A stretch of DNA of 36,015 bases from Anaerolineales bacterium UBA7227 (GTDB lineage Bacteria > Chloroflexota > Anaerolineae > Anaerolineales > Villigracilaceae). The DNA is taken from NCBI GenBank assembly GCA_002473085.1, contig DKTP01000002.1:3413-39427 (forward strand), read 5' to 3'. Under the pieces are notes generated by a model, which had not been told where the DNA came from, did no database searches, and was given only the letters and a program-made list of their open reading frames with translations. The first letter of the stretch is position 1, and each line of letters starts with the position of its first letter. Position numbers and translations under genes: made by a program. Below, in pieces: positions 23,544 through 36,015 of this stretch.

Positions 23544-24224
23544 TCAGGAATTTTCGCGCATCACATAGCCGACGCCGCGCAGGGTGTGGATGAGGCGGGG
23601 TTCTCCGCCCTCCTCCAGTTTCTGGCGCAGGTAGCGGATGTAGACTTCCAGCACGTTGCTTTCGCCGCCGAAGTCGTACCCCCAGACGCGGTCGAAGATG
23701 ACTTCGCGGGTCAGCACCTGTTTGGGATGGCGCAGGAAGAGTTCGAGCAATTCGTACTCTTTGGCGGTCAGTTGGATGAGGCGGCTGCCGCGCGAGGCCT
23801 GGCGGGAGCCGGTGTCGAGGGTCAGGTCGGCGAATTTCAGGACGGGGACGCGGTCGGGCTGGGTGCGGCGCAGGAGGGCGCGCACGCGCGCCAGCAGTTC
23901 GTCGAGGTTGAACGGCTTGACCAGGTAGTCGTCCGCCCCGGCGTCCAGACCCTGGATGCGGTCCTGGACGGAGTCTTTGGCGGTGAGCATCAGGATCGGG
24001 ACCGACCCGCTGGCCGTCCGCATACGATGACAGACTTCGAGGCCGTCCATGCCGGGCAGCATCCAATCGAGAATGACGAGGTCGGGCTGGTGATCGCGCG
24101 CCAGCATCAATCCGCTGCGACCTTCGGTGGCGGTATCCACGGTGTATCCTTCGTAGGTCAAACCGCGCTGGAGGATTTTCAAAATGGCCTGGTCGTCTTC
24201 GATGATCAGAATTCTTTCGTTCAT
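23544..24224 (-). CDS. OmpR/PhoB-family response regulator
   Basis: This 226-residue regulator has an intact receiver domain: acidic pair IIEDD (residues 7-11), phospho-acceptor Asp53 in [15 protein letters not shown], Thr in MLTAKDS and Lys in [12 protein letters not shown]. Its winged-helix DNA-binding domain starts at LTLDTGSRQ and ends in the hallmark [14 protein letters not shown] and [19 protein letters not shown] ribosome binding site precedes the ATG. Upstream on the minus strand is a TATATT-type -10 box. The partner kinase is the gene downstream. Divergent to the haem-sensor kinase gene. Confidence 0.96.
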
Positions 24225-24336
24225 AGTTCTTCCTCAGTTCGCAGTATGGCTTTGCACATTCAATGAGGGAGCGCTTACAGGCAAAATATACCACACTTGG
24301 CGCAAGATGCCCGGCCGCCCGCCGGTAGTTCTGGGA

Positions 24337-24342
24337 TATACT
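24337..24342 (+). promoter_or_regulatory. -10 box for the haem-sensor operon
   Basis: TATACT would start transcription near 24349, just before the AGAGGA site (24349-24354) that sits nine bases in front of a TTG codon at 24364. This argues against the longer in-frame starts upstream. Confidence 0.45.
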
Positions 24343-24363
24343 TGCGCCAGAGGATTCACGCCG

Positions 24364-25842
24364 TTGAAAAAAAGCGCCCGTTCCATGCGGCCCTATTACG
24401 AACTCAAATTGCGCCATAAAGTGGGGATCGTTTTTTTTCTGCCAGCGCTGCTGGCCCTGCTGGTCATGCTGGCCGCCCACATTGTGCGCGATGCGCGCGA
24501 GGCAAAAGCCAACCGCGAGCAGGTCAAAGTTGCCGCCTCGAGCCTCGGACACGCGATGTTGAACGGTCTGCGGCACGCCATGCTCAAAAACGATTCGGAA
24601 ACGCTCGACAGCATGGTCAACGACATGGGAAGCGCGTATCCCGTTCGGCGAATTTGGATCGTGGACTGGCAAAACGTCGTCTGGAAAAGCAGCGCGGCCG
24701 GCGATGTGGGACGGATGGCCGCGCCGGCCGATCTGGGCTGCCCGGAATGTCATCAAAACCAGGCGGGACCGCCTCCGCAGGCGATCGCCTTCTCCGCAAA
24801 TTCGAATCTGCTGCGCGTCGCCATCCCGGTCGAACAGGCCCCGGAATGCAGGGAATGTCACCCCGCGGCCCAGCCGCACATGGGCGTGATGATATTGGAC
24901 GCCTCGGCGCCTTCGCTTCAGGCCGGGTTCGCGGCGGGGACGCTGCTGGAGGGGCTGGCGTTGCTCATGATCCTGGCCGCGTTCCTGCTGCTGGATTTTG
25001 AACTGGTGCAATGGCTCATCGTCCGCCGCGTGGAGGTGATCCACAATGCCCTGCTCAAATTCGGGGGCGGCGATCTGTCCACGCGCATCGCGCCGCGCTG
25101 GCGCACCAGCGACGAGTTGACGCAGCTGGCCGATCAGTTTAACGAGATCGCGGAGAATTTCGAGAGGCTGCAGGCCAAACGGAAGGAGAAGGAACGCGTG
25201 CGGGCGCAGGCCATCATTGAAGAGCGCGAACGCATCGCCCGTGAACTTCACGACGGCGTGGCCCAGTTCCTGGGTTATCTCTCCGCCAAACTGGGGTCCG
25301 TCCAGATCGCCTTGAAGAATCAACGGATGGAGGCCGCCGATAAAAGCCTGGCGCAGATCGAGGCCTCGGTCCGCGACCAGTCCGCCGAGGTGCGCTCCGC
25401 CATCGTCGGGTTGAAGATGTCGGGCGGCATCGACCGGGGGCTGATCTCCAGCGTGCGCGAATTCGTGGAACAGTGCAACCGCATCGACGATCTGGCGCTG
25501 GAACTGGAAATCGTCGGGGAGGCGGAGAGCGCCCCTCTCTCTGAAGAATCTGCCCTGCAGCTATTCCGCATCCTGCAGGAGGCGGTCAGCAACGTCCGCA
25601 AACATGCGCGCGCCGCCGAAGCCTCGATCCGTTTCCAGCGGCAGGACGACCGTTTGACGATGACCATCCGCGATAACGGCGTGGGCTTCGATCCCCTGCT
25701 CACCGGGCTGGAGCGGAGAGGCCGCTTTGGGTTGCAGATCATGGTGGAGCGCGCCCACGCCATCGGCGCGCGCATCGAGATCAAATCCGCGCCGGGACAG
25801 GGCGCCCAGGTGATTGTCGACCTCGCCCTTCAGGAGTCTTGA
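24364..25842 (+). CDS. Histidine kinase with two c-type haem motifs in the sensor domain
   Basis: The 492-residue kinase (TTG start; ATG at 24385 is the alternative) has membrane helices at about residues 20-40 and 192-216, enclosing an extracellular domain. In that domain lie two haem-attachment motifs, CPECH at 126-130 and CRECH at 162-166. A HAMP region (ELTQLADQFNEIAENF) follows. The NarX/DegS-type HisKA_3 site is IARELHDGVAQFLGYL with His296, and the ATPase part has LQEAVSNVRKHARA and NGVGFDPLL. A redox-, nitric-oxide- or oxygen-sensing role through bound haem is inferred. The NarL-type regulator follows two bases after the stop codon, and the multihaem cytochrome genes lie downstream. 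Confidence 0.93.
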   Translation: MKKSARSMRPYYELKLRHKVGIVFFLPALLALLVMLAAHIVRDAREAKANREQVKVAASSLGHAMLNGLRHAMLKNDSETLDSMVNDMGSAYPVRRIWIVDWQNVVWKSSAAGDVGRMAAPADLGCPECHQNQAGPPPQAIAFSANSNLLRVAIPVEQAPECRECHPAAQPHMGVMILDASAPSLQAGFAAGTLLEGLALLMILAAFLLLDFELVQWLIVRRVEVIHNALLKFGGGDLSTRIAPRWRTSDELTQLADQFNEIAENFERLQAKRKEKERVRAQAIIEERERIARELHDGVAQFLGYLSAKLGSVQIALKNQRMEAADKSLAQIEASVRDQSAEVRSAIVGLKMSGGIDRGLISSVREFVEQCNRIDDLALELEIVGEAESAPLSEESALQLFRILQEAVSNVRKHARAAEASIRFQRQDDRLTMTIRDNGVGFDPLLTGLERRGRFGLQIMVERAHAIGARIEIKSAPGQGAQVIVDLALQES

Positions 25843-25844
25843 AC

Positions 25845-26477
25845 ATGCGCGTACTGGTAGTGGACGACCATTCCCTCTTCCGCGACGGGATCGTGAGCCT
25901 GCTCGAAGCCGGCGGGCACGCGGTGGTCGGGCAGGGAAACAACGGCCTCGAGGCCGTCCGCCTTACCGAGGAACTTCATCCCGAACTAGTGCTGCTGGAC
26001 CTCCACATGCCAATTATGACCGGGTTGACCGCCCTGAAACAGATCAAGGCCGAAATGCCCGACATGAAGGTCGTCATGCTCACGGTCTCGGAGGAAGACA
26101 AAGACATCATCGAAGCCATTCGCGCCGGCGCGAACGGTTACCTGCTCAAGCAGATCAACGCCGCCGAATTCTTTCAACTGCTGGAGAAATTGGAACGGGG
26201 GGAAGCCGCCGTCTCGCCGGCAGTGGCGCTCCATCTCTTTAAGTATGTAGGCCGCATCGGGCCGAAAGCCGAGGCCTCTCCCCTCAGCGAAAGAGAACTC
26301 GAAGTCCTGCGGCTGGTTGCGAATGGAAAATCAAATCACGAGACGGCCGAAGCCCTGTCGATCAGCGATAACACCGTCAAATTCCATCTTAAAAACATCA
26401 TGCAAAAATTGAACGCCTCCAACCGCGCCGAAGCCGTGATGAACGCAAAGCAATTGAACCTCCTCCAAATGCCATAA
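25845..26477 (+). CDS. NarL/FixJ-family response regulator
   Basis: This 210-residue regulator has a receiver domain with VVDDHSLF, Asp52 in LLDLHMPIMTGLTAL, MLTVSEED and Lys in YLLKQINAAE. A C-terminal LuxR-type helix-turn-helix runs from LSERELEVLRLVANGKSNHETAEAL to KFHLKNIMQKLNASNRAEAV. The start at 25845 is preferred; it has AGGAG eight bases upstream and begins two bases after the kinase stop. The kinase and regulator form a tight pair. Because the cytochrome operon starts about 150 bases downstream, that operon is the likely target. A strong terminator follows. Confidence 0.95.
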   Translation: MRVLVVDDHSLFRDGIVSLLEAGGHAVVGQGNNGLEAVRLTEELHPELVLLDLHMPIMTGLTALKQIKAEMPDMKVVMLTVSEEDKDIIEAIRAGANGYLLKQINAAEFFQLLEKLERGEAAVSPAVALHLFKYVGRIGPKAEASPLSERELEVLRLVANGKSNHETAEALSISDNTVKFHLKNIMQKLNASNRAEAVMNAKQLNLLQMP

Positions 26478-26623: not shown

Positions 26624-27019
26624 ATGGGAACCCCAAAGATTCTCGTTCTGACCGGCCGGTCGCTCCTCGTGCAAGGGATCATCTCCAACTTGCAGAAGAC
26701 CTCCGCTTCCCTGGAAATGGAAACGGCGGACGCGGGCCGCGCCGACCTGCTTGAATGGATGGCGGAGCGCCAGCCAGACATCGTGATTCTAGAGTCGTCC
26801 CTGCGCGGCCAGCCCAACGGCTGCCCGTTCAACCGCTTCTTCGAGATCCTTCCACACCTCATCGTCCTCGAAGTCAACCTTAACAATTCGAGCGTCCAAA
26901 TGATCCGCAGCGACCTGTACGAAACCTCCGACTTCGCGGACTTTCTGGGCATGATCCAATCCGTCAAATCGAGCCCTCACGGTTTATTCGCCCCGCTTTC
27001 CGCAACGACCCATGAATAA
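26624..27019 (+). CDS. Receiver-like protein with Glu at the phospho-acceptor position
   Basis: The 131-residue protein has receiver-domain layout: first strand KILVLTGRSLLVQGII, then PDIVILESSLRG, then LIVLEVNL. The usual acidic pair is replaced (LTG), the phospho-acceptor Asp is Glu57 in the position of IVILD, and the conserved Lys is not seen. It therefore cannot be phosphorylated normally and may be a constitutive or ligand-controlled adaptor. There is no output domain. It is first in the cytochrome operon and its last codons overlap the next start by eight bases. A TATAGT box lies 18 bases before the ATG. The family is inferred from the fold pattern only. Confidence 0.65.
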   Translation: MGTPKILVLTGRSLLVQGIISNLQKTSASLEMETADAGRADLLEWMAERQPDIVILESSLRGQPNGCPFNRFFEILPHLIVLEVNLNNSSVQMIRSDLYETSDFADFLGMIQSVKSSPHGLFAPLSATTHE

Positions 27020-28301
27020 ACGCGCCTTCCCCGCCCCCTGGAAGATCCTGTCCATCTTCACGGGACTCATGCTCCTCGCGTGGGTCAACCTGACGCTTTC
27101 AGCCGGGCGCGTCCAGGCTCTGACGCCGGGGCAGGCCGGCGCGACGCCGACCGTCACGCCCACCGCCGCGCCCCCGCCCGACGAGCAGCCGATCACTTCC
27201 GCCAGCCCGCACGCCACCGGCGACTGTTTCGCCTGTCACTCGCAAGCGGGCATGACGGGCATGACCAAAGACGGGGACGAATACTCCCTGTACTTCGACA
27301 AGTTCCATTACCAGGACATCCTGCATTCCAACTGCGTCTTCTGCCACGTCAACCAGAAGAGCTACCCGCACGACTCGTCCCCCACACAGTCCTGCGCGGT
27401 CTGCCATTGGGAGGCGGCCGGGGCGCCGGCCCCCGACGGACCGTTGACCTTCCAACTGCCCTACGAGGACACGCGCGCCATCGCGCTGGAGATCAACGCC
27501 TCCTGTATGCGCTGTCACGGCGAGGCGTTCAAGGAGATCGAGACCAGCGTGCATACGCGCACCATGTCGAAGGACAACCGCTTCGCCCCGGTCTGCGTGG
27601 ACTGCCACACCCCTCACGTCATCAAGATCATCAACCGTCAGTACGGCGCGCAACTATGCTCCAAGTGTCACCTGGCGCAAACCATCGCCTACGAAAGCAG
27701 CGTGCACGGCACGGCGTTGAAAGCGGAGAACAACCAGGACGTCCCGATCTGCGACGACTGCCACGGCGCGCACAGCGTCATTGGTCCGCGCGACGCGGCC
27801 TTCCGTCTCGACGCGTTCGAGATGTGCGGAAAATGTCACGCCGACGAGAATCGGATGAAGAAGTACAACATCTCCACAGACGTGCTTTCCACCTACCTCG
27901 ACGATTTCCACGGGCGTTCGTCAGACCTGTTCGGCAAACCCGGCGCGGCCAAGATCACCAAAGCCGCCTGCTACGATTGCCACGGCGTCCACAATATCCT
28001 GTCGCCCGAAAACCCGGAATCGAAGGTCGCCGCGGCGAACCTGCAAAGAACCTGCCAGGAATGTCACCCGGACGCCAACGCGAACTTCCCCGCGGCCTGG
28101 CTGGGCCATAAGCGGGTTTCCATACAGGACGAACCCGCGCTGTTCGCCCTACAGTTGTTTTTAATTCTGTCCGTATCGGCGGTCGTGGTCTTCTTCGTCG
28201 CCTATATCTCGCTGGATATCGGCAAGCGCCGGGCGACGCGAAAAGCGGAAGCCGCGGCCGCGGAAACAAAAAGCGAGAACGAGGAGGGAAAACCGCAATG
28301 A
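27012..28301 (+). CDS. Membrane-anchored decahaem c-type cytochrome
   Basis: This 429-residue cytochrome has an N-terminal signal/anchor (about residues 10-30) and a Thr/Pro-rich spacer. Ten CXXCH motifs are at about residues 72, 108, 128, 165, 195, 216, 247, 272, 320 and 348. A C-terminal membrane helix (about 380-402) ends in a charged cytoplasmic tail. The haem part thus faces outside. The FdnI-like cytochrome b gene follows with an ATGA overlap. Together they resemble a split form of CbcL, in which a multihaem c domain is fused to a dihaem cytochrome b. Role inferred: to take electrons from quinol via cytochrome b and pass them outward. Confidence 0.93.
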   Translation: MNKRAFPAPWKILSIFTGLMLLAWVNLTLSAGRVQALTPGQAGATPTVTPTAAPPPDEQPITSASPHATGDCFACHSQAGMTGMTKDGDEYSLYFDKFHYQDILHSNCVFCHVNQKSYPHDSSPTQSCAVCHWEAAGAPAPDGPLTFQLPYEDTRAIALEINASCMRCHGEAFKEIETSVHTRTMSKDNRFAPVCVDCHTPHVIKIINRQYGAQLCSKCHLAQTIAYESSVHGTALKAENNQDVPICDDCHGAHSVIGPRDAAFRLDAFEMCGKCHADENRMKKYNISTDVLSTYLDDFHGRSSDLFGKPGAAKITKAACYDCHGVHNILSPENPESKVAAANLQRTCQECHPDANANFPAAWLGHKRVSIQDEPALFALQLFLILSVSAVVVFFVAYISLDIGKRRATRKAEAAAAETKSENEEGKPQ

Positions 28302-29254
28302 GCGCGAACAAGACCCGTACCTCGCCGCGCAGACCAAAGCCCTACACCTTCCAGATCTCTTGGCGGGACGCCGTGGAAGCCGCCATGCGCTTGCGAACCG
28401 ACCACAAGGGCAGGCGCTACGTCAACCGCTTTTCCACCGCGGCCGCCATCGAGCATTTCGTGCTTTTGCTGTCGTTCGTGATCCTGGGGATCACCGGCTT
28501 CGCGCAGACTTTTTACAACACCGCGCTGGGCAGCCATACGCTGGAGCTCTTCGGCGGGATCGACTCGCTCCGCCAGGTGCATCACGCGTTCGCGTTCATC
28601 CTCGGCATCTCGGTCGGCTATCACCTCCTGAACTACGCCAACGACCTGATCGTCTATCGCCGCTCCGGGGGGATGTGGTTCGACCACGCGGACTGGTCCC
28701 TGCTCTTCCGCCTCGGCCGCTCGAAAAGGCCGACGGAGTTTGGACGCTACACCTTCGCGGAAAAGATCTCCTACTGGGCGACGGCGTTCGCCATCCTGGC
28801 GCTGGGCGCCAGCGGGCTGGCGCAGCTCTTTCCCATTTGGGTCTCCGAAGTTCTGCCGGGACGGGCTGTGCCGGCCGCGAAACTGACGCACTTCTGGATG
28901 GCGGTCCTGCTGGCGGCTGTCGTGCTGGTCTGGCACGCGTACGACGTGCTGATTCGCAAAGTCAACTTGAGCATTCTCACCGGCAACATGTCCATCAAAG
29001 ATATGGAGGAGGATCACCCGCTGGAGCTGCACTATCTCGAAGCCGCGGCCGGCGCCGTCAACAGCCCGGATTGGCCGCTGATCCTCGAGATCGCGCGCGA
29101 GGACGAACCGCCAATACTCGAGAAAAAGACGGAGAGCAGGCCAACCGTCGAAGCGAGGCGGGAAACGACCGCCCCGCAGGAAACGCCAAAAAACACGGAG
29201 CCGGTTGAAGGTCAGAAAGACGAGGCGGCTTCCCAGGATTCCGTCGAAGGATGA
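28298..29254 (+). CDS. FdnI/HydC-like dihaem cytochrome b subunit
   Basis: This 318-residue protein has four or five membrane helices with conserved His at suitable places: IEHFVLLLSFVILGITGF (His53), QVHHAFAF (His95/96), SVGYHLLNYANDL (His109), and KLTHFWMAVLLAAVVLVWHA (His198, His213). The helix beginning FAEKISYWATAFAILALGAS is typical of formate dehydrogenase gamma and hydrogenase cytochrome b subunits, which oxidise or reduce quinones. An acidic, repetitive cytoplasmic C-terminus follows residue 250. It starts in an ATGA overlap with the decahaem gene. Inferred as the quinol-oxidising partner of that cytochrome. Confidence 0.9.
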   Translation: MSANKTRTSPRRPKPYTFQISWRDAVEAAMRLRTDHKGRRYVNRFSTAAAIEHFVLLLSFVILGITGFAQTFYNTALGSHTLELFGGIDSLRQVHHAFAFILGISVGYHLLNYANDLIVYRRSGGMWFDHADWSLLFRLGRSKRPTEFGRYTFAEKISYWATAFAILALGASGLAQLFPIWVSEVLPGRAVPAAKLTHFWMAVLLAAVVLVWHAYDVLIRKVNLSILTGNMSIKDMEEDHPLELHYLEAAAGAVNSPDWPLILEIAREDEPPILEKKTESRPTVEARRETTAPQETPKNTEPVEGQKDEAASQDSVEG

Positions 29255-29259
29255 TTTCA

Positions 29260-30732
29260 ATGAAGAAGATTCGAATCCCGTTCCTGTCCAAACTTCGCTG
29301 GCCGCACATTGACCTTGACCTGAGCAAGCCGGCCCATCGCTGGAAGTTCCTTCTCGGCCTGGTGACGCTCGGCATCGTCGGGGTGGCGCTGGCGATCGGC
29401 GGGGTGCAGGGATACGCCTACTCCGAAAGCACGGAGTTTTGCGGCACGGTCTGCCACTCGATGTATCCGCAGTTGGAGCGTCACGACCAGTCGGCGCACG
29501 CCAACGTGGAATGTACGACCTGTCACGTGGGGCCGGGCGCGGCGGCCTTCGTCCAATCCAAAATTGACGGGACGCGCCAGCTGGTGGCGACCGTCTTCGA
29601 TAATTATGCGCGGCCGATCAAAAGCCCGGTCAAGAACCTGCGCCCGGCCCGCGAGATCTGCGAAGGCTGCCACACGCCCACTTCGTTCACCGACAACATC
29701 ATCAAGGTGAACCGTCATTATGACGACGACGCGGAGAACACGCCCTACGAGAACACTTTGATCCTGAAGATGGGCGGACTCAACGTCCTGACCGGCGAGC
29801 GGCGCGGCATTCACTGGCACGTCGCCAGCGAGGTGGACTACATCGCCCTCGACGACCAGCGCCAGGTGATGGCCTGGGTGGGCGTGAAACAGCCCGACGG
29901 CTCTCTCAAGGAATATTTTTCGCGCGACATGCTCAACATGGCGCAGACGAATTTTGTGGAGAAGGCGCGCGCCAGCGGCGAACTGCGCACGCTCGATTGC
30001 ATTGACTGTCACAACCGCACGGCGCATTACATCCCCTACCCCGAGCAGGTGGTGGACCAGGCCATGCTCCACAATCTCATCTCGCCCGACCTGCCGTTCA
30101 TTCACAAGAACGCGTCGGACCTGCTGAACGAAAAATACGCGTCGAGCGACGAGGCCTTTGCCGCCATTGACAAACTGGCGGAGAAATACGCGTCATCCCC
30201 GAAAGATGAAGTGGAGCAGGCCGTCAAGACGCTCAAAGACATCTATACCATCACGAACTTCCCCGACATGAACCTGGACTGGAAGAGCAACCCGAACAAC
30301 GAGCGTCACAACCCCACGCTGGGATGCTTCCGCTGTCACGACGGCAACCACGTCTCGCGGGACGCTAAAGGAAACGAGGAAGTAATCAGCGTGAAGTGCA
30401 ACCTGTGCCACACCGTCCCCATCACGGGACGCGGCAGCGAGCTGGTGGTGGAAGCCCCGGTGATCGTGGGCAGCGTCCCCGCTACGCATGCGGACTTTAG
30501 CTGGACCGTCACGCACCAGTACACTTCGTCCGATGAACTGGACAGCTGCGCCGACTGCCACGGGCGGTCGTTCTGCAGCAACCAGGCCTGCCACAACCTC
30601 AACCACCCTGCGGACATGGCCTTCACGCATCCGCAATCCTACGCCGAATCCGGCGGACAGGTCTGCTATACCTGCCATCAAAACGTGACCTGCGCCCGCT
30701 GTCATCCGGGCGGCATCATCGAGAAACCCTAG
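29260..30732 (+). CDS. NapC/ImcH-like membrane-anchored decahaem cytochrome with unusual haem sites
   Basis: This 490-residue cytochrome has one N-terminal helix (about residues 29-50). It is followed by the NapC/NrfH-type start ESTEFCGTVCHSMYP, whose first site is CX3CH (residue 61). Standard CXXCH sites follow at about 85, 134, 247, 356, 380, 430, 469 and 478. A CX4CH site (CSNQACH) is at 439, giving ten haems in all. The general layout recalls ImcH, the inner-membrane cytochrome needed for metal reduction in Geobacter, although that protein has fewer haems. An ATG at 29251 overlapping the previous stop is an alternative start; 29260 has GAAGGA at the right distance. Quinol oxidation is inferred. 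Confidence 0.9.
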   Translation: MKKIRIPFLSKLRWPHIDLDLSKPAHRWKFLLGLVTLGIVGVALAIGGVQGYAYSESTEFCGTVCHSMYPQLERHDQSAHANVECTTCHVGPGAAAFVQSKIDGTRQLVATVFDNYARPIKSPVKNLRPAREICEGCHTPTSFTDNIIKVNRHYDDDAENTPYENTLILKMGGLNVLTGERRGIHWHVASEVDYIALDDQRQVMAWVGVKQPDGSLKEYFSRDMLNMAQTNFVEKARASGELRTLDCIDCHNRTAHYIPYPEQVVDQAMLHNLISPDLPFIHKNASDLLNEKYASSDEAFAAIDKLAEKYASSPKDEVEQAVKTLKDIYTITNFPDMNLDWKSNPNNERHNPTLGCFRCHDGNHVSRDAKGNEEVISVKCNLCHTVPITGRGSELVVEAPVIVGSVPATHADFSWTVTHQYTSSDELDSCADCHGRSFCSNQACHNLNHPADMAFTHPQSYAESGGQVCYTCHQNVTCARCHPGGIIEKP

Positions 30733-33059: not shown

Positions 33060-34607
33060 ATGAAGAAACTTCTCTTCGCAATGGCGCTGGGCGCGATCCT
33101 CATCCTCGCCCTCGCCACCACCGCAACAGCGGACAACGGCCCTCACGGCGGCTTCAACGGTTCCACCGAAGCCTGCGCTTCGTGCCACCGCGCGCACTCG
33201 GCGATTTCCTCCGACGGTTTCCTGCTGGTCGCCAGCGACGTCTACAGCCTGTGCACCTCGTGCCATGACGGCACCGGCGCGTACACCAACGTTGTGGACG
33301 GCTACTACGACACCGCCATTCCCGGTCCCGATACCCACGGCAAGGGTAGTTGGGCCGGCGGCTGGGGCGATGCCGGTTACGGTCTGTTCGGCGGCGGGTT
33401 CGTCAACGCCCGCATGTTGACCGACTACGGCAACGCCTCCAACGAAGGCGGTCTCGCAAACACGACCGCCAACGCGGCCGCGGATCGCAACAACTCCCTC
33501 ACTTCGTGGGCGCGCATGAACGCCTACGATACCAGCGCGGCCTCCCCGCTCGCCGTGGGACGCGCGGCGACATCCAACCACGATGTCTCCACCGCGGGCC
33601 GCTCCGGCACCGTCTGGGGCTCCGGCAACATCAATGCCGGCGGCACGCTGGCGAACAACTGGGGCGCGGGGACCTTCACCGGCGCCACGGAGTTGGAGTG
33701 CACATCCTGTCACGATCCGCATGGAAACGCCGGCAAGCAGTGGGGCTCCGCCACAGGCGCGCCGTATCCGTCCTACCGCATCCTGCGCTTCCAGCCCGGA
33801 GGCTCGAACGGCTTCGAGGTTGCAGGCGAGGTCGGCGCGGGCGCGGCGTTCTACTGGAACACCGCCCAGACCTGGAGCGCGGCCAACGGCATCGCGGCCG
33901 GCTATGTCGGTCAGACGGTCATCCCGTCGGTGGCTGGCGTTCAAGTTCCCGATACCACCGTCAAGTGGTATTCGCTGAACAACAATCCCGCCCTTGACCG
34001 CACCGTGAGCTCCTACAGCACCCGTTACGTCCCGGCTGCGGTCAACAGCCCGTATGTGGCGAACTTCGCCGGCGCAGGCGACTACGGCGGCCGCTACTAT
34101 GCCTACAAGCGTCCCGCCGTTACCGCCTTCAACATCACCGCCACTTCGCGCGTCGCCTGCTTCGACGGCACAACGATGACCGCCAACGCGGCGGACTGCG
34201 CCGGCGGCACGGGCGGCACGGCCTTCAACAACCAGGCCCCGCACGACGTGATGGGGTACTGGTGCGCCACCTGCCACGACCGCTACCTGGCCCCCGGCCT
34301 GGCGTCTCGCAGCACGGACTCCGGCGATCCCGGCTATCACTACCGCCACCGCGCTGGCGCTTCCGGCGCCACCCTGGCCGGCGCCGGGACCTATACCTGC
34401 GTAGACTGCCACAACGCGCACGGCACCGCCGCCACCGCCTCCTCGGCGCTGGCGAGCAACGCCTCCTATGCGGGCGGCTCCGTCCTGCTCAAGGCCGACA
34501 ACCGCGCCATCTGCCTCCGTTGCCACGCGGGGGCGGTCAACTTCTTCAACGTGACCACCAGCCCGACCGCGCCGATCATCGTCCCGGTCGCGGCTCCCGG
34601 TCCATAA
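33060..34607 (+). CDS. OmcS-like secreted hexahaem cytochrome
   Basis: This 515-residue protein has a Sec signal peptide (MKKLLFAMALGAILILALAT, cleavage after TATA) and no membrane anchor. Six CXXCH motifs lie at residues 39, 65, 214, 402, 447 and 485. Order and neighbours match OmcS of Geobacter as recalled: an early PHGG before ACASCHRAHS, then LCTSCHDGTG, ECTSCHDPHG, a YRIL motif, WCATCHDR, RHRAGASGATLAG (RHPAG...GATIAG in OmcS), CVDCHNAHG and a terminal ICLRCHA. The linkers are rich in Gly, Ala, Asn and Thr. The start at 33060 has AGGAG upstream; a GTG two codons earlier is an alternative. Filament formation is inferred from homology to OmcS. Confidence 0.88.
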   Translation: MKKLLFAMALGAILILALATTATADNGPHGGFNGSTEACASCHRAHSAISSDGFLLVASDVYSLCTSCHDGTGAYTNVVDGYYDTAIPGPDTHGKGSWAGGWGDAGYGLFGGGFVNARMLTDYGNASNEGGLANTTANAAADRNNSLTSWARMNAYDTSAASPLAVGRAATSNHDVSTAGRSGTVWGSGNINAGGTLANNWGAGTFTGATELECTSCHDPHGNAGKQWGSATGAPYPSYRILRFQPGGSNGFEVAGEVGAGAAFYWNTAQTWSAANGIAAGYVGQTVIPSVAGVQVPDTTVKWYSLNNNPALDRTVSSYSTRYVPAAVNSPYVANFAGAGDYGGRYYAYKRPAVTAFNITATSRVACFDGTTMTANAADCAGGTGGTAFNNQAPHDVMGYWCATCHDRYLAPGLASRSTDSGDPGYHYRHRAGASGATLAGAGTYTCVDCHNAHGTAATASSALASNASYAGGSVLLKADNRAICLRCHAGAVNFFNVTTSPTAPIIVPVAAPGP

Positions 34608-34653: not shown

Positions 34654-34860
34654 CACAGGAAAACGCCGTGAAAGTCTCTCGCCTCCAATGTACGAAAGCA
34701 ATGGCATACGCCAGTTCCGGGGTCCGAACCGGCGCAGCGCCGCTTTCGCGGCGTCGCTTGTCTCCCAGCAGGGGCGTGGCGGCTATCCAGCCTCCGCCAT
34801 GCCCGTCGTCACGTCCCTGATGGATTGCCTTTAATCGCCTGTTTCAACGAAGTATTATCC
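34654..34860. other. Structure-rich spacer between the cytochrome and muramidase genes
   Basis: About 200 bases without a supported gene contain several stems. GCC-GTTC pairs with GAAC-GGC around CGGGGTCC (near 34711-34734). CGCCGC pairs with GCGGCG around TTTC (near 34739-34756). GGGCGTGGCGG pairs with CCGCCATGCCC (near 34775-34806). It may be a leader or small RNA, but it matches no riboswitch consensus I can recall. Confidence 0.35.
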
Positions 34861-36015
34861 GTGAAGAAACGCCTGCGCAACGCCGCCCGCTCCCGAAGTC
34901 TCGCCACGACATTGATGGTTATGGCGACGCTGATTGTAATCGCCGCGCTTGCCGTCCCCGCGCAGGCCGGCCGGCCGTTTTCGTCCGCGACCGCCACTCC
35001 CACCGCCACCCCTCGGTCATTATTCCCATTTTTATTCCCCGCCAAACAAGCCGGAGAGACCTTCAATCCCGGACTACTATCCTCGCCAGACAGCCCTCTT
35101 GAACTTGCCTCCAGCCGTCCGCTTAACCTGCTGGCTGGGAAGCTCATCTTCACCGGACTGGTGAACGCCTCCTCCTGCGCCGACGGCGGGATCCTCCGCA
35201 ACGGCGCGGCCACCCCCTGCGGCGAGCGCGCGGCGCACAACGCCGTCGTCCTCTGGCAGAACCAGTTCGACGAAGCCATCTACAACGCCGCCATCCAGCA
35301 GGGAGTCCCGCCCTATCTCCTCAAAAACGTGATCGGACAGGAAAGCCAGTACTGGCCCGGCAATCATTCCACCCGCTATGGTTACTCCGAATACGGACTC
35401 GGCCAATTCACCAACAACGGCGCCGACACCCTCCTGCGCTGGAACAACGGCTTCGCCCACGAGTTCTGTCTTCAGATCTACACCGCCGAGACGTGCAAAA
35501 CGCCCTACGGACTCATGCCCGCCTCGCAGCAATCGCTCCTGCGCGGCGCGATCATCCAGCGCGTCGACGCGGACTGCGCCAACTGCCCCGGGCGCGTGGA
35601 CCTACAGCGCTCACGCAACAGCGTCATCTACGTCGCCGCGGCCCTGCGCGCCAGTTACAACAGCGCCAAATACTACGTGGAAGGTCTCACCGGCCGCTCC
35701 TTCGCCAACCTCGATCCCGGCGACGCCTGGCGCATCTCGCTCATCGGCTACCACAACGGGCCGGGCTGCCTCGCCTCGGCCATCAGCCGCGCCAGGAGCC
35801 AGCGTCTCGCGACCAACTGGAAGAACATCTCCAACTCGCTCGACACGGGCTGCGAAAGTTCCATCGAATATGTCCGCGCGGTGAAGAACCTGCAACGCGC
35901 CACCGACGCGGAACTCCGCCTCGCTCAGCGCGACGCCAGCATCGCCGCGTCCCTCGTGATCGGCTTTACGCGGCCCACCGATGTCCCGCCGCTCGCGCCC
36001 GAACCGACGACGACC
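34861..36015 (+). CDS. Secreted SLT-like transglycosylase, 3' end beyond the window
   Basis: The frame opens with GTG at 34861 and stays open for 385 codons to the window edge. Its N-terminus is a signal peptide: MKKRLRNAARSRS, then a hydrophobic stretch TLMVMATLIVIAALAVP ending in AQA. A Thr/Pro-rich spacer (SSATATPTATPRS) follows. The later part has lytic-transglycosylase features: VIGQESQYWPGNHS with a probable catalytic Glu, GLGQFTNNGADTL, and GYHNGPGCLASAI, with several Cys that could form disulfides. An ATG 54 bases in is an alternative start, but the Lys/Arg-rich first residues favour 34861. It lies downstream of the OmcS-like gene and could open the cell wall for filament passage; that is inference. 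The 3' end is missing. Confidence 0.78.
   Translation, partial: MKKRLRNAARSRSLATTLMVMATLIVIAALAVPAQAGRPFSSATATPTATPRSLFPFLFPAKQAGETFNPGLLSSPDSPLELASSRPLNLLAGKLIFTGLVNASSCADGGILRNGAATPCGERAAHNAVVLWQNQFDEAIYNAAIQQGVPPYLLKNVIGQESQYWPGNHSTRYGYSEYGLGQFTNNGADTLLRWNNGFAHEFCLQIYTAETCKTPYGLMPASQQSLLRGAIIQRVDADCANCPGRVDLQRSRNSVIYVAAALRASYNSAKYYVEGLTGRSFANLDPGDAWRISLIGYHNGPGCLASAISRARSQRLATNWKNISNSLDTGCESSIEYVRAVKNLQRATDAELRLAQRDASIAASLVIGFTRPTDVPPLAPEPTTT

Follow-up and report, generated by a model that had tools for sequence, protein, structure and literature searches.

We have analyzed a stretch of 36,015 nucleotides from the Chloroflexota bacterium Anaerolineales UBA7227 (contig DKTP01000002.1, positions 3,413 to 39,427), referred to here as the window, in which a gene near the right-hand end encodes a secreted hexahaem cytochrome, P0001. 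An initial annotation, made from the sequence alone, had likened this protein to OmcS, the polymerising hexahaem cytochrome of Geobacter sulfurreducens. The genes surrounding it are summarized in Table 1. They share one strand, and from the small gene at 26624 through the NHL-repeat gene the intergenic gaps range between -8 and 23 bases; 75 bases lie ahead of the P0001 gene.

Table 1. Genes of the P0001 region, with positions in the window and the basis of each assignment.
Feature	Position	Strand	Basis
Sensor histidine kinase, two CXXCH in outside domain	24184..25842	+	Pfam HisKA_3, HATPase_c, HAMP on 24304-25842
Response-regulator-like protein, paired with the kinase	25839..26477	+	Position, conserved pairing, features by eye
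Small protein (131 amino acids) heading the compact gene row	26624..27019	+	Open reading frame listing and position
Decahaem cytochrome, signal helix and C-terminal membrane helix	27012..28301	+	10 CXXCH; Pfam Cytochrome_C7, Paired_CXXCH_1
Cytochrome b561 / formate-dehydrogenase-gamma-like membrane subunit	28298..29254	+	Pfam Ni_hydr_CYTB 4.5e-13; NCBIfam below cut-offs
Octahaem cytochrome, NapC/NirT-type membrane anchor	29251..30732	+	Pfam Cytochrom_NNT 1.6e-10; 8 CXXCH, one helix
TPR protein, one N-terminal membrane helix	30756..31718	+	Pfam TPR; hydropathy
NHL-repeat beta-propeller, one N-terminal membrane helix	31728..32984	+	Pfam NHL 3.1e-19; hydropathy
P0001, secreted hexahaem cytochrome of the OmcS/CwcA kind	33060..34607	+	515 amino acids from ATG
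Start of giant gene, truncated where the contig ends	34825..36015	+	Weakly lytic-transglycosylase-like

An alternative start for P0001, a GTG six bases upstream, would give a protein of 517 amino acids. The six CXXCH motifs are at residues 39, 65, 214, 402, 447 and 485; chance is excluded as their source, since 20,000 shuffles of the sequence contained 0.01 motifs on average and never more than one. Residues 1-22 are signal-peptide-like and the rest of the protein is without a membrane helix in a simple hydropathy scan, in agreement with the signal peptide and lack of an anchor noted earlier; judged by eye, the signal peptide covers residues ~1-24. Histidines 29, 46, 174, 221, 430 and 454 are the putative distal ligands, and their pairing with individual haems is the one that we infer. 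A promoter scan found 0 promoters, against 1.6 expected by chance.

A protein search in which 7,994 candidates were scored identified 343 relatives of P0001 at E <= 0.001. Among the best 120 of these 343, which were listed, 118 have six CXXCH motifs, one has five and one has three. Three of the matches listed carry an organism name, and all are Chloroflexota or Anaerolineales metagenome-assembled genomes (MAGs); the best named genome loci are likewise from Chloroflexota. Mature P0001 was aligned with 121 of 127 listed relatives to give 122 rows. Those left out were P0003, which is identical, and P0017, P0020, P0034, P0061 and P0129; both relatives without six motifs are among them. All 122 rows contain the six motifs. 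Of the other histidines of P0001, H46, H174, H221, H430 and H454 are invariant (122/122) and H29 is found in 121 rows, while the three spare ones are kept in 1, 24 and 38 rows. Exactly six further histidine columns are thus conserved for six haems, or one extra histidine per haem. The six distal histidines are also invariant across 22 chosen sequences, and all six are aligned in 53 of 57 family open reading frames (ORFs), although the aligner may favour such a result. These 57 ORFs range in length between 291 and 898 amino acids. The hexahaem proteins of three Bacillota loci (L028 9557-11521, L029 9596-11560 and L026 9605-11437) are considerably extended at the N-terminus, and over 200 residues separate their haems 3 and 4; the same six histidines are nevertheless aligned.

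The relation to OmcS was assessed by comparing a profile of 46 sequences headed by P0001 with a profile of 45 OmcS-family members, all 45 of which have six CXXCH motifs. Two OmcS-type genes occur in a Desulfuromonadales MAG (L039, of which L045 is a sub-stretch); one of the proteins matches OmcS (PDB 6ef8) at 4.6e-65. Global hhalign comparison of the two profiles scored 99.9% (E 4.2e-30), and each of the six motifs fell opposite its counterpart. The local comparison scored 99.0% across haems 1-3 and 91% for haem 4, in place; haems 5-6 of P0001 matched haems 1-2 of OmcS, out of place, at 86%. As controls we used five further families of multihaem proteins from the same set of loci, each represented by 4 to 11 sequences. 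Four of them (decahaem membrane, NapC-type octahaem, and the 12-haem and 10-haem families of Bacillota) scored 0.0-0.1 globally and 24-54 locally when compared with the OmcS profile. The fifth, a Bacillota 7-10-haem family, reached 99.2 globally and therefore probably shares a module. The P0001 profile scored 0.0-0.1 with three of the controls, 37 with the 12-haem family and 99.3 with the 7-10-haem family. Both the Bacillota hexahaem proteins (10) and the Chloroflexota tandem ones (19) scored 99.9 globally against the OmcS profile.

At the residue level, P0001 and OmcS are identical at 66 of 282 aligned positions. Of the 12 histidines that are putative ligands in P0001, 11 share a column with a histidine of OmcS. 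The twelfth, H29, is without an OmcS partner; in the alignment with the L045 homologue, the histidine that corresponds to it is offset by four columns. Motifs in the mature OmcS chain start at 9, 47, 140, 239, 328 and 400, so that in P0001 the stretches between motifs 2 and 3 and between 3 and 4 are longer than in OmcS and the other three (1-2, 4-5 and 5-6) are shorter. The local landmarks that had been named in the initial annotation can be seen in both sequences (P0001/OmcS: PHGG/FHSGG, CHRAHS/CHTMHN, CHDPHG/CHDPHG, YRIL/YRIL, WCATCH/WCANCH, RHRAG/RHPAG and CHNAHG/CHRAHA); the terminal CHA lies outside the comparison, as the OmcS 6ef8 sequence used ends at H, residue 404. A template-free model of P0001 built from the 122-row alignment recovered the OmcS fold, with a borderline Z score. 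An earlier model, built on 46 sequences, was of low quality (pLDDT 60.5) and gave no fold match, a Foldseek search with the 122-row model listed one row, which was irrelevant, and phmmer with P0001 against the PDB gave nothing relevant. P0001 is almost certainly a homologue of OmcS. The order of the six motifs and, H29 apart, the register of the distal histidines, on which the original comparison was to be judged, both agree with OmcS; neither a different haem arrangement nor a set of unrelated doubled-CXXCH proteins as best homologues, named beforehand as grounds for giving it up, was encountered. What had been a likeness of motifs is now a full-length homology with a modelled OmcS fold; the filament that was also proposed may form, with a histidine pattern that fits ligation between subunits.

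The genes preceding P0001 recur with its relatives. Among 41 loci fetched by homology, 32 contain a plus-strand six- or seven-haem family member by our score rule, giving 33 with the window; of the nine that fail this rule, three (L034, L039 and L043) hold OmcS-family genes instead. In 27 of the 33 loci the gene immediately before the first hexahaem gene encodes an NHL protein, and in 25 a TPR gene precedes this NHL gene, both being raw counts. These 25 loci are the window, 17 that are named as Chloroflexota or groups within it, six from Bacillota (L026, L029, L031, L032, L035 and L038) and one Coriobacteriia MAG (L027). Among the exceptions, L008 and L014 have little upstream DNA, L022 has the NHL gene only, L019, L021 and L025 have the genes elsewhere in the locus, and L028 and L030 also lack the pair. 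Matches outside Chloroflexota are weak (NHL 25-97 bits and TPR 23-37, with a threshold of 20); in L031, the one locus tested, Pfam confirmed both domains. Named Bacillota genomes among these are Neobacillus novalis (L031), N. mesonae (L032), N. niacini (L035) and Bacillus sp. MRMR6 (L029). Their gene order is a 10-haem and a 12-haem NapC-like cytochrome, TPR, NHL and hexahaem cytochrome. Several loci carry differing six- or seven-haem paralogues in tandem behind one TPR-NHL pair (L005 5150-8598, L007 8982-12450, L010 10001-12006 and others), which suggests mixed or alternative wires.

Beta-propeller genes also lie close to OmcS-type genes in one locus. In this Desulfuromonadales locus (L039 6163-18688) a 12-haem protein is followed by a beta-propeller, two OmcS-type genes, a second propeller, a GNA1162-like lipoprotein and a peptidyl-prolyl isomerase (PPIase). 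Published gene clusters that include NHL proteins also hold an OmcE homologue, in Geoalkalibacter, or cytochromes that are putatively outer ones, in Desulfovibrio ferrophilus (PMC12016550, PMC9769857). Together with the propellers flanking the OmcS-type genes, these clusters suggest a link between propellers and wires that is wider than the P0001 family. A Geomonas locus (L036) was rejected as an OmcS locus: its match is a protein of 587 amino acids with 10 CXXCH motifs, next to an OmcE-like neighbour.

No match to Omp85 or LpxC, the two outer-membrane markers sought, was found in the source genome, which is 96.8% complete and in which ribosomal protein S9 was found as a positive control. This result fits a cell without an outer membrane, as had been stated earlier. 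A 16S search of six genomes, the source genome among them, gave no match. The hexahaem gene is distributed patchily (E <= 1e-20), being present in 4 of 41 genomes from the source's own genus, family and order and in 11 of 301 from its phylum (8 of 217 good ones); the first two counts include the source genome itself.

The membrane proteins encoded upstream are of kinds that could feed electrons to such a cytochrome. The octahaem NapC/NirT-type protein is, by its sequence, the probable quinol-side donor. No trihaem carrier or porin, as in OmcS systems, is among the genes identified in the P0001 operon. Weakly similar ORFs to the 131-amino-acid protein occur at the same place in L004, L007, L011, L013 and L020. 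The true start of the kinase is uncertain and may be at 24385. With its two CXXCH motifs the kinase is a possible c-haem redox sensor; relatives with two motifs head the row in L004, L011 and L020.

Downstream of P0001, the last frame of the window matches the SLT domain with 18.4 bits, below the Pfam cut-off of 21.3. The window ends where the contig ends, and contig C136 (L057) opens with a 20-base exact overlap; the open frame of C136 carries the reading on through a subtilase, fn3/Ig domains and 15 CXXCH motifs (L057 1928-7591, minus strand). The two segments, 34825-36015 of the window and L057 1928-7591 (-), are probably one gene split across two contigs. A subtilase and haems are found in a single frame in L004 (2180 amino acids, 15 haems) and L003 (1361 amino acids, five haems); Pfam lists no SLT domain in these two frames, and both still match the last frame of the window. 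In L020 a long multihaem frame (2266 amino acids) that matches this last frame likewise follows the hexahaem gene, as in L003 and L004.

Several described systems resemble that of P0001. CwcA of the Gram-positive Thermincola (Tfer_0075 / TherJR_1122), an OmcS-like hexahaem protein with 18% identity to OmcS, has been modelled as a stack across the peptidoglycan and is served by a membrane-anchored decahaem donor (PMC7911101). P0001 is, like CwcA, a hexahaem OmcS relative with a membrane decahaem donor and the same proposed role in a bacterium without an outer membrane, as judged here by two markers; the two are likened by description and not by sequence. The surface partner differs, being OcwA for CwcA and the giant subtilase-multihaem protein for P0001. 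A wire of the OmcS type in such a cell had thus been proposed before, for CwcA (PMC7911101), to which the initial annotation makes no reference. A Coriobacteriales protein with all six CXXCH motifs and 28% identity to OmcS was the sole homologue outside Geobacter in a 2020 study of Rifle bioanodes (PMC7399161). It belongs to another phylum than P0001; large Chloroflexi cytochromes are described in the same study, and the part of its text available notes no OmcS homologue from Chloroflexi (PMC7399161). In the open-licence literature, as far as its accessible text extends, we found no earlier report of a Chloroflexota OmcS homologue or of a TPR-NHL-hexahaem cassette. Since the CwcA stack and the Coriobacteriales homologue are already in print, P0001 joins a known OmcS/CwcA kind, in a phylum for which no earlier report was found and with a distinct, conserved accessory set. 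From OmcS itself the P0001 system differs in its host, which has neither Omp85 nor LpxC, and in its TPR-NHL pair and giant subtilase-multihaem gene. OmcE (7tfs) and the OmcE-like 9yuq match the P0001 family weakly by profile, but OmcE has four haems, the chains have 218-232 amino acids, and the matches are confined to short paired-motif stretches. The PDB entry 9yuq, 'Putative multiheme cytochrome c' (218 amino acids, 16 chains), is related to proteins of the OmcE type; in linear searches its match to the query profile is about as good as that of OmcS. The cytochrome wires solved so far come from Geobacter and two archaea (PMC12954529), and the physiological importance of cytochrome filaments is disputed (PMC11077965).

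In OmcS (structures 6ef8 and 6nef) all twelve haem ligands are histidines, and one of them, on haem 5, is supplied by the neighbouring subunit (PMC6584659, PMC7096707). The six haems of OmcS and P0001 are in the same order, and both proteins have a histidine close to the mature N-terminus. We take the inter-subunit ligand of OmcS to be His16, in the CHxxH of haem 1; H46 of P0001 falls in this column and is invariant. Should the ligands pair in the OmcS manner, haem 5 could be completed only by H46 of the next subunit. The histidine pattern thus fits inter-subunit ligation, from which we infer polymerisation. By analogy with OmcS, the subunits probably form a head-to-tail conduit; that they go on to form a long free filament could be the case, but we lean somewhat against it.

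We propose, with a probability of roughly 0.6 for the mechanism as a whole, that the operon serves extracellular electron transfer and that P0001 is its wire subunit. The protein would be exported, cut just ahead of its DNGPHGG end and loaded with six bis-histidine haems. It would then fold like OmcS around a linear haem stack, as its homology, haem and histidine positions and modelled fold suggest. Subunits may stack head to tail, H46 of one completing haem 5 of the next, and the stack might conduct electrons across the wall of the single-membrane cell and possibly farther. To judge by gene content, menaquinol electrons would enter via the cytochrome b, the membrane-bound cytochrome with ten haems and the octahaem protein of the NapC type. 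From the conserved gene order, the TPR and NHL proteins, each with a membrane anchor, would have a part in nucleating the stack, holding it or capping it. More speculatively, the giant protein with subtilase and haems, whose start is weakly lysozyme-like, could open a path through the peptidoglycan, relay electrons at the surface, or both. The two-CXXCH kinase may tune expression to the redox state.

The same fold could also serve without a polymer, P0001 being a monomeric or short-oligomer hexahaem protein that sits in the wall or on the giant cytochrome and transfers electrons by contact. Because the inter-haem stretches are unlike those of OmcS the interface may be lost, the family ORFs vary widely in length, and two or three different hexahaem or heptahaem paralogues stand side by side in several loci, where a mixed chain is conceivable. 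However, the histidine in the OmcS His16 column is invariant, and, if ligands pair as they do in OmcS, six conserved extra histidines for six haems require that a different subunit supply one of the ligands. OmcS and OmcE both form linear stacks in which a neighbour's histidine ligates one haem, and the loops of these wire cytochromes are reported to diverge freely (PMC9473688). We consider a reading without polymer rather unlikely. Electrons might instead flow inward, the wire taking them from Fe(II), minerals or partner cells, which is compatible with P0001 either as a polymer or not. Haem chains can conduct either way, and Ardenticatena, a Chloroflexota isolate, performs both anodic and cathodic transfer (PMC5808234), but NapC-type and cytochrome-b subunits usually draw electrons from quinol, and inward flow appears improbable. 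Finally, that P0001 is an NrfA-type reductase, or a protein of the generic doubled-CXXCH sort that resembles OmcS through shared motifs, is highly improbable: it is true, and counts against kinship with OmcS, that NrfA ranked above OmcS in linear PDB profile searches and that generic doubled-CXXCH and c7/c3 domains are the only Pfam matches above cut-off, but the NrfA match is restricted to the region of haems 4-6, CXXCK, which marks the active-site haem of NrfA, occurs in 0 of the 122 rows, six conserved extra histidines leave no obvious open site for six haems, and the global alignment to OmcS that works for the P0001 family fails for four of the five other multihaem families. An NrfA-like reductase was accordingly rejected.

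If P0001 is the wire subunit proposed here, near-invariant twelve-histidine relatives of OmcS in Chloroflexota and Bacillota would extend this kind of wire to cells that need no outer-membrane porin. A broader and tentative suggestion, which we regard as doubtful, is that OmcS-type wires are old and widespread in bacteria without an outer membrane (Chloroflexota, Bacillota including the named Neobacillus species, and some Actinobacteria), that they are built and anchored by a dedicated TPR and NHL beta-propeller pair, that Geobacter OmcS is one branch of them, and that this pair is the missing machinery of nanowire assembly or anchoring. The conserved TPR-NHL pair provides two genes with which to probe the assembly and anchoring of cytochrome wires, and the named Neobacillus genomes, with the same TPR-NHL-hexahaem order, offer a practical test system.
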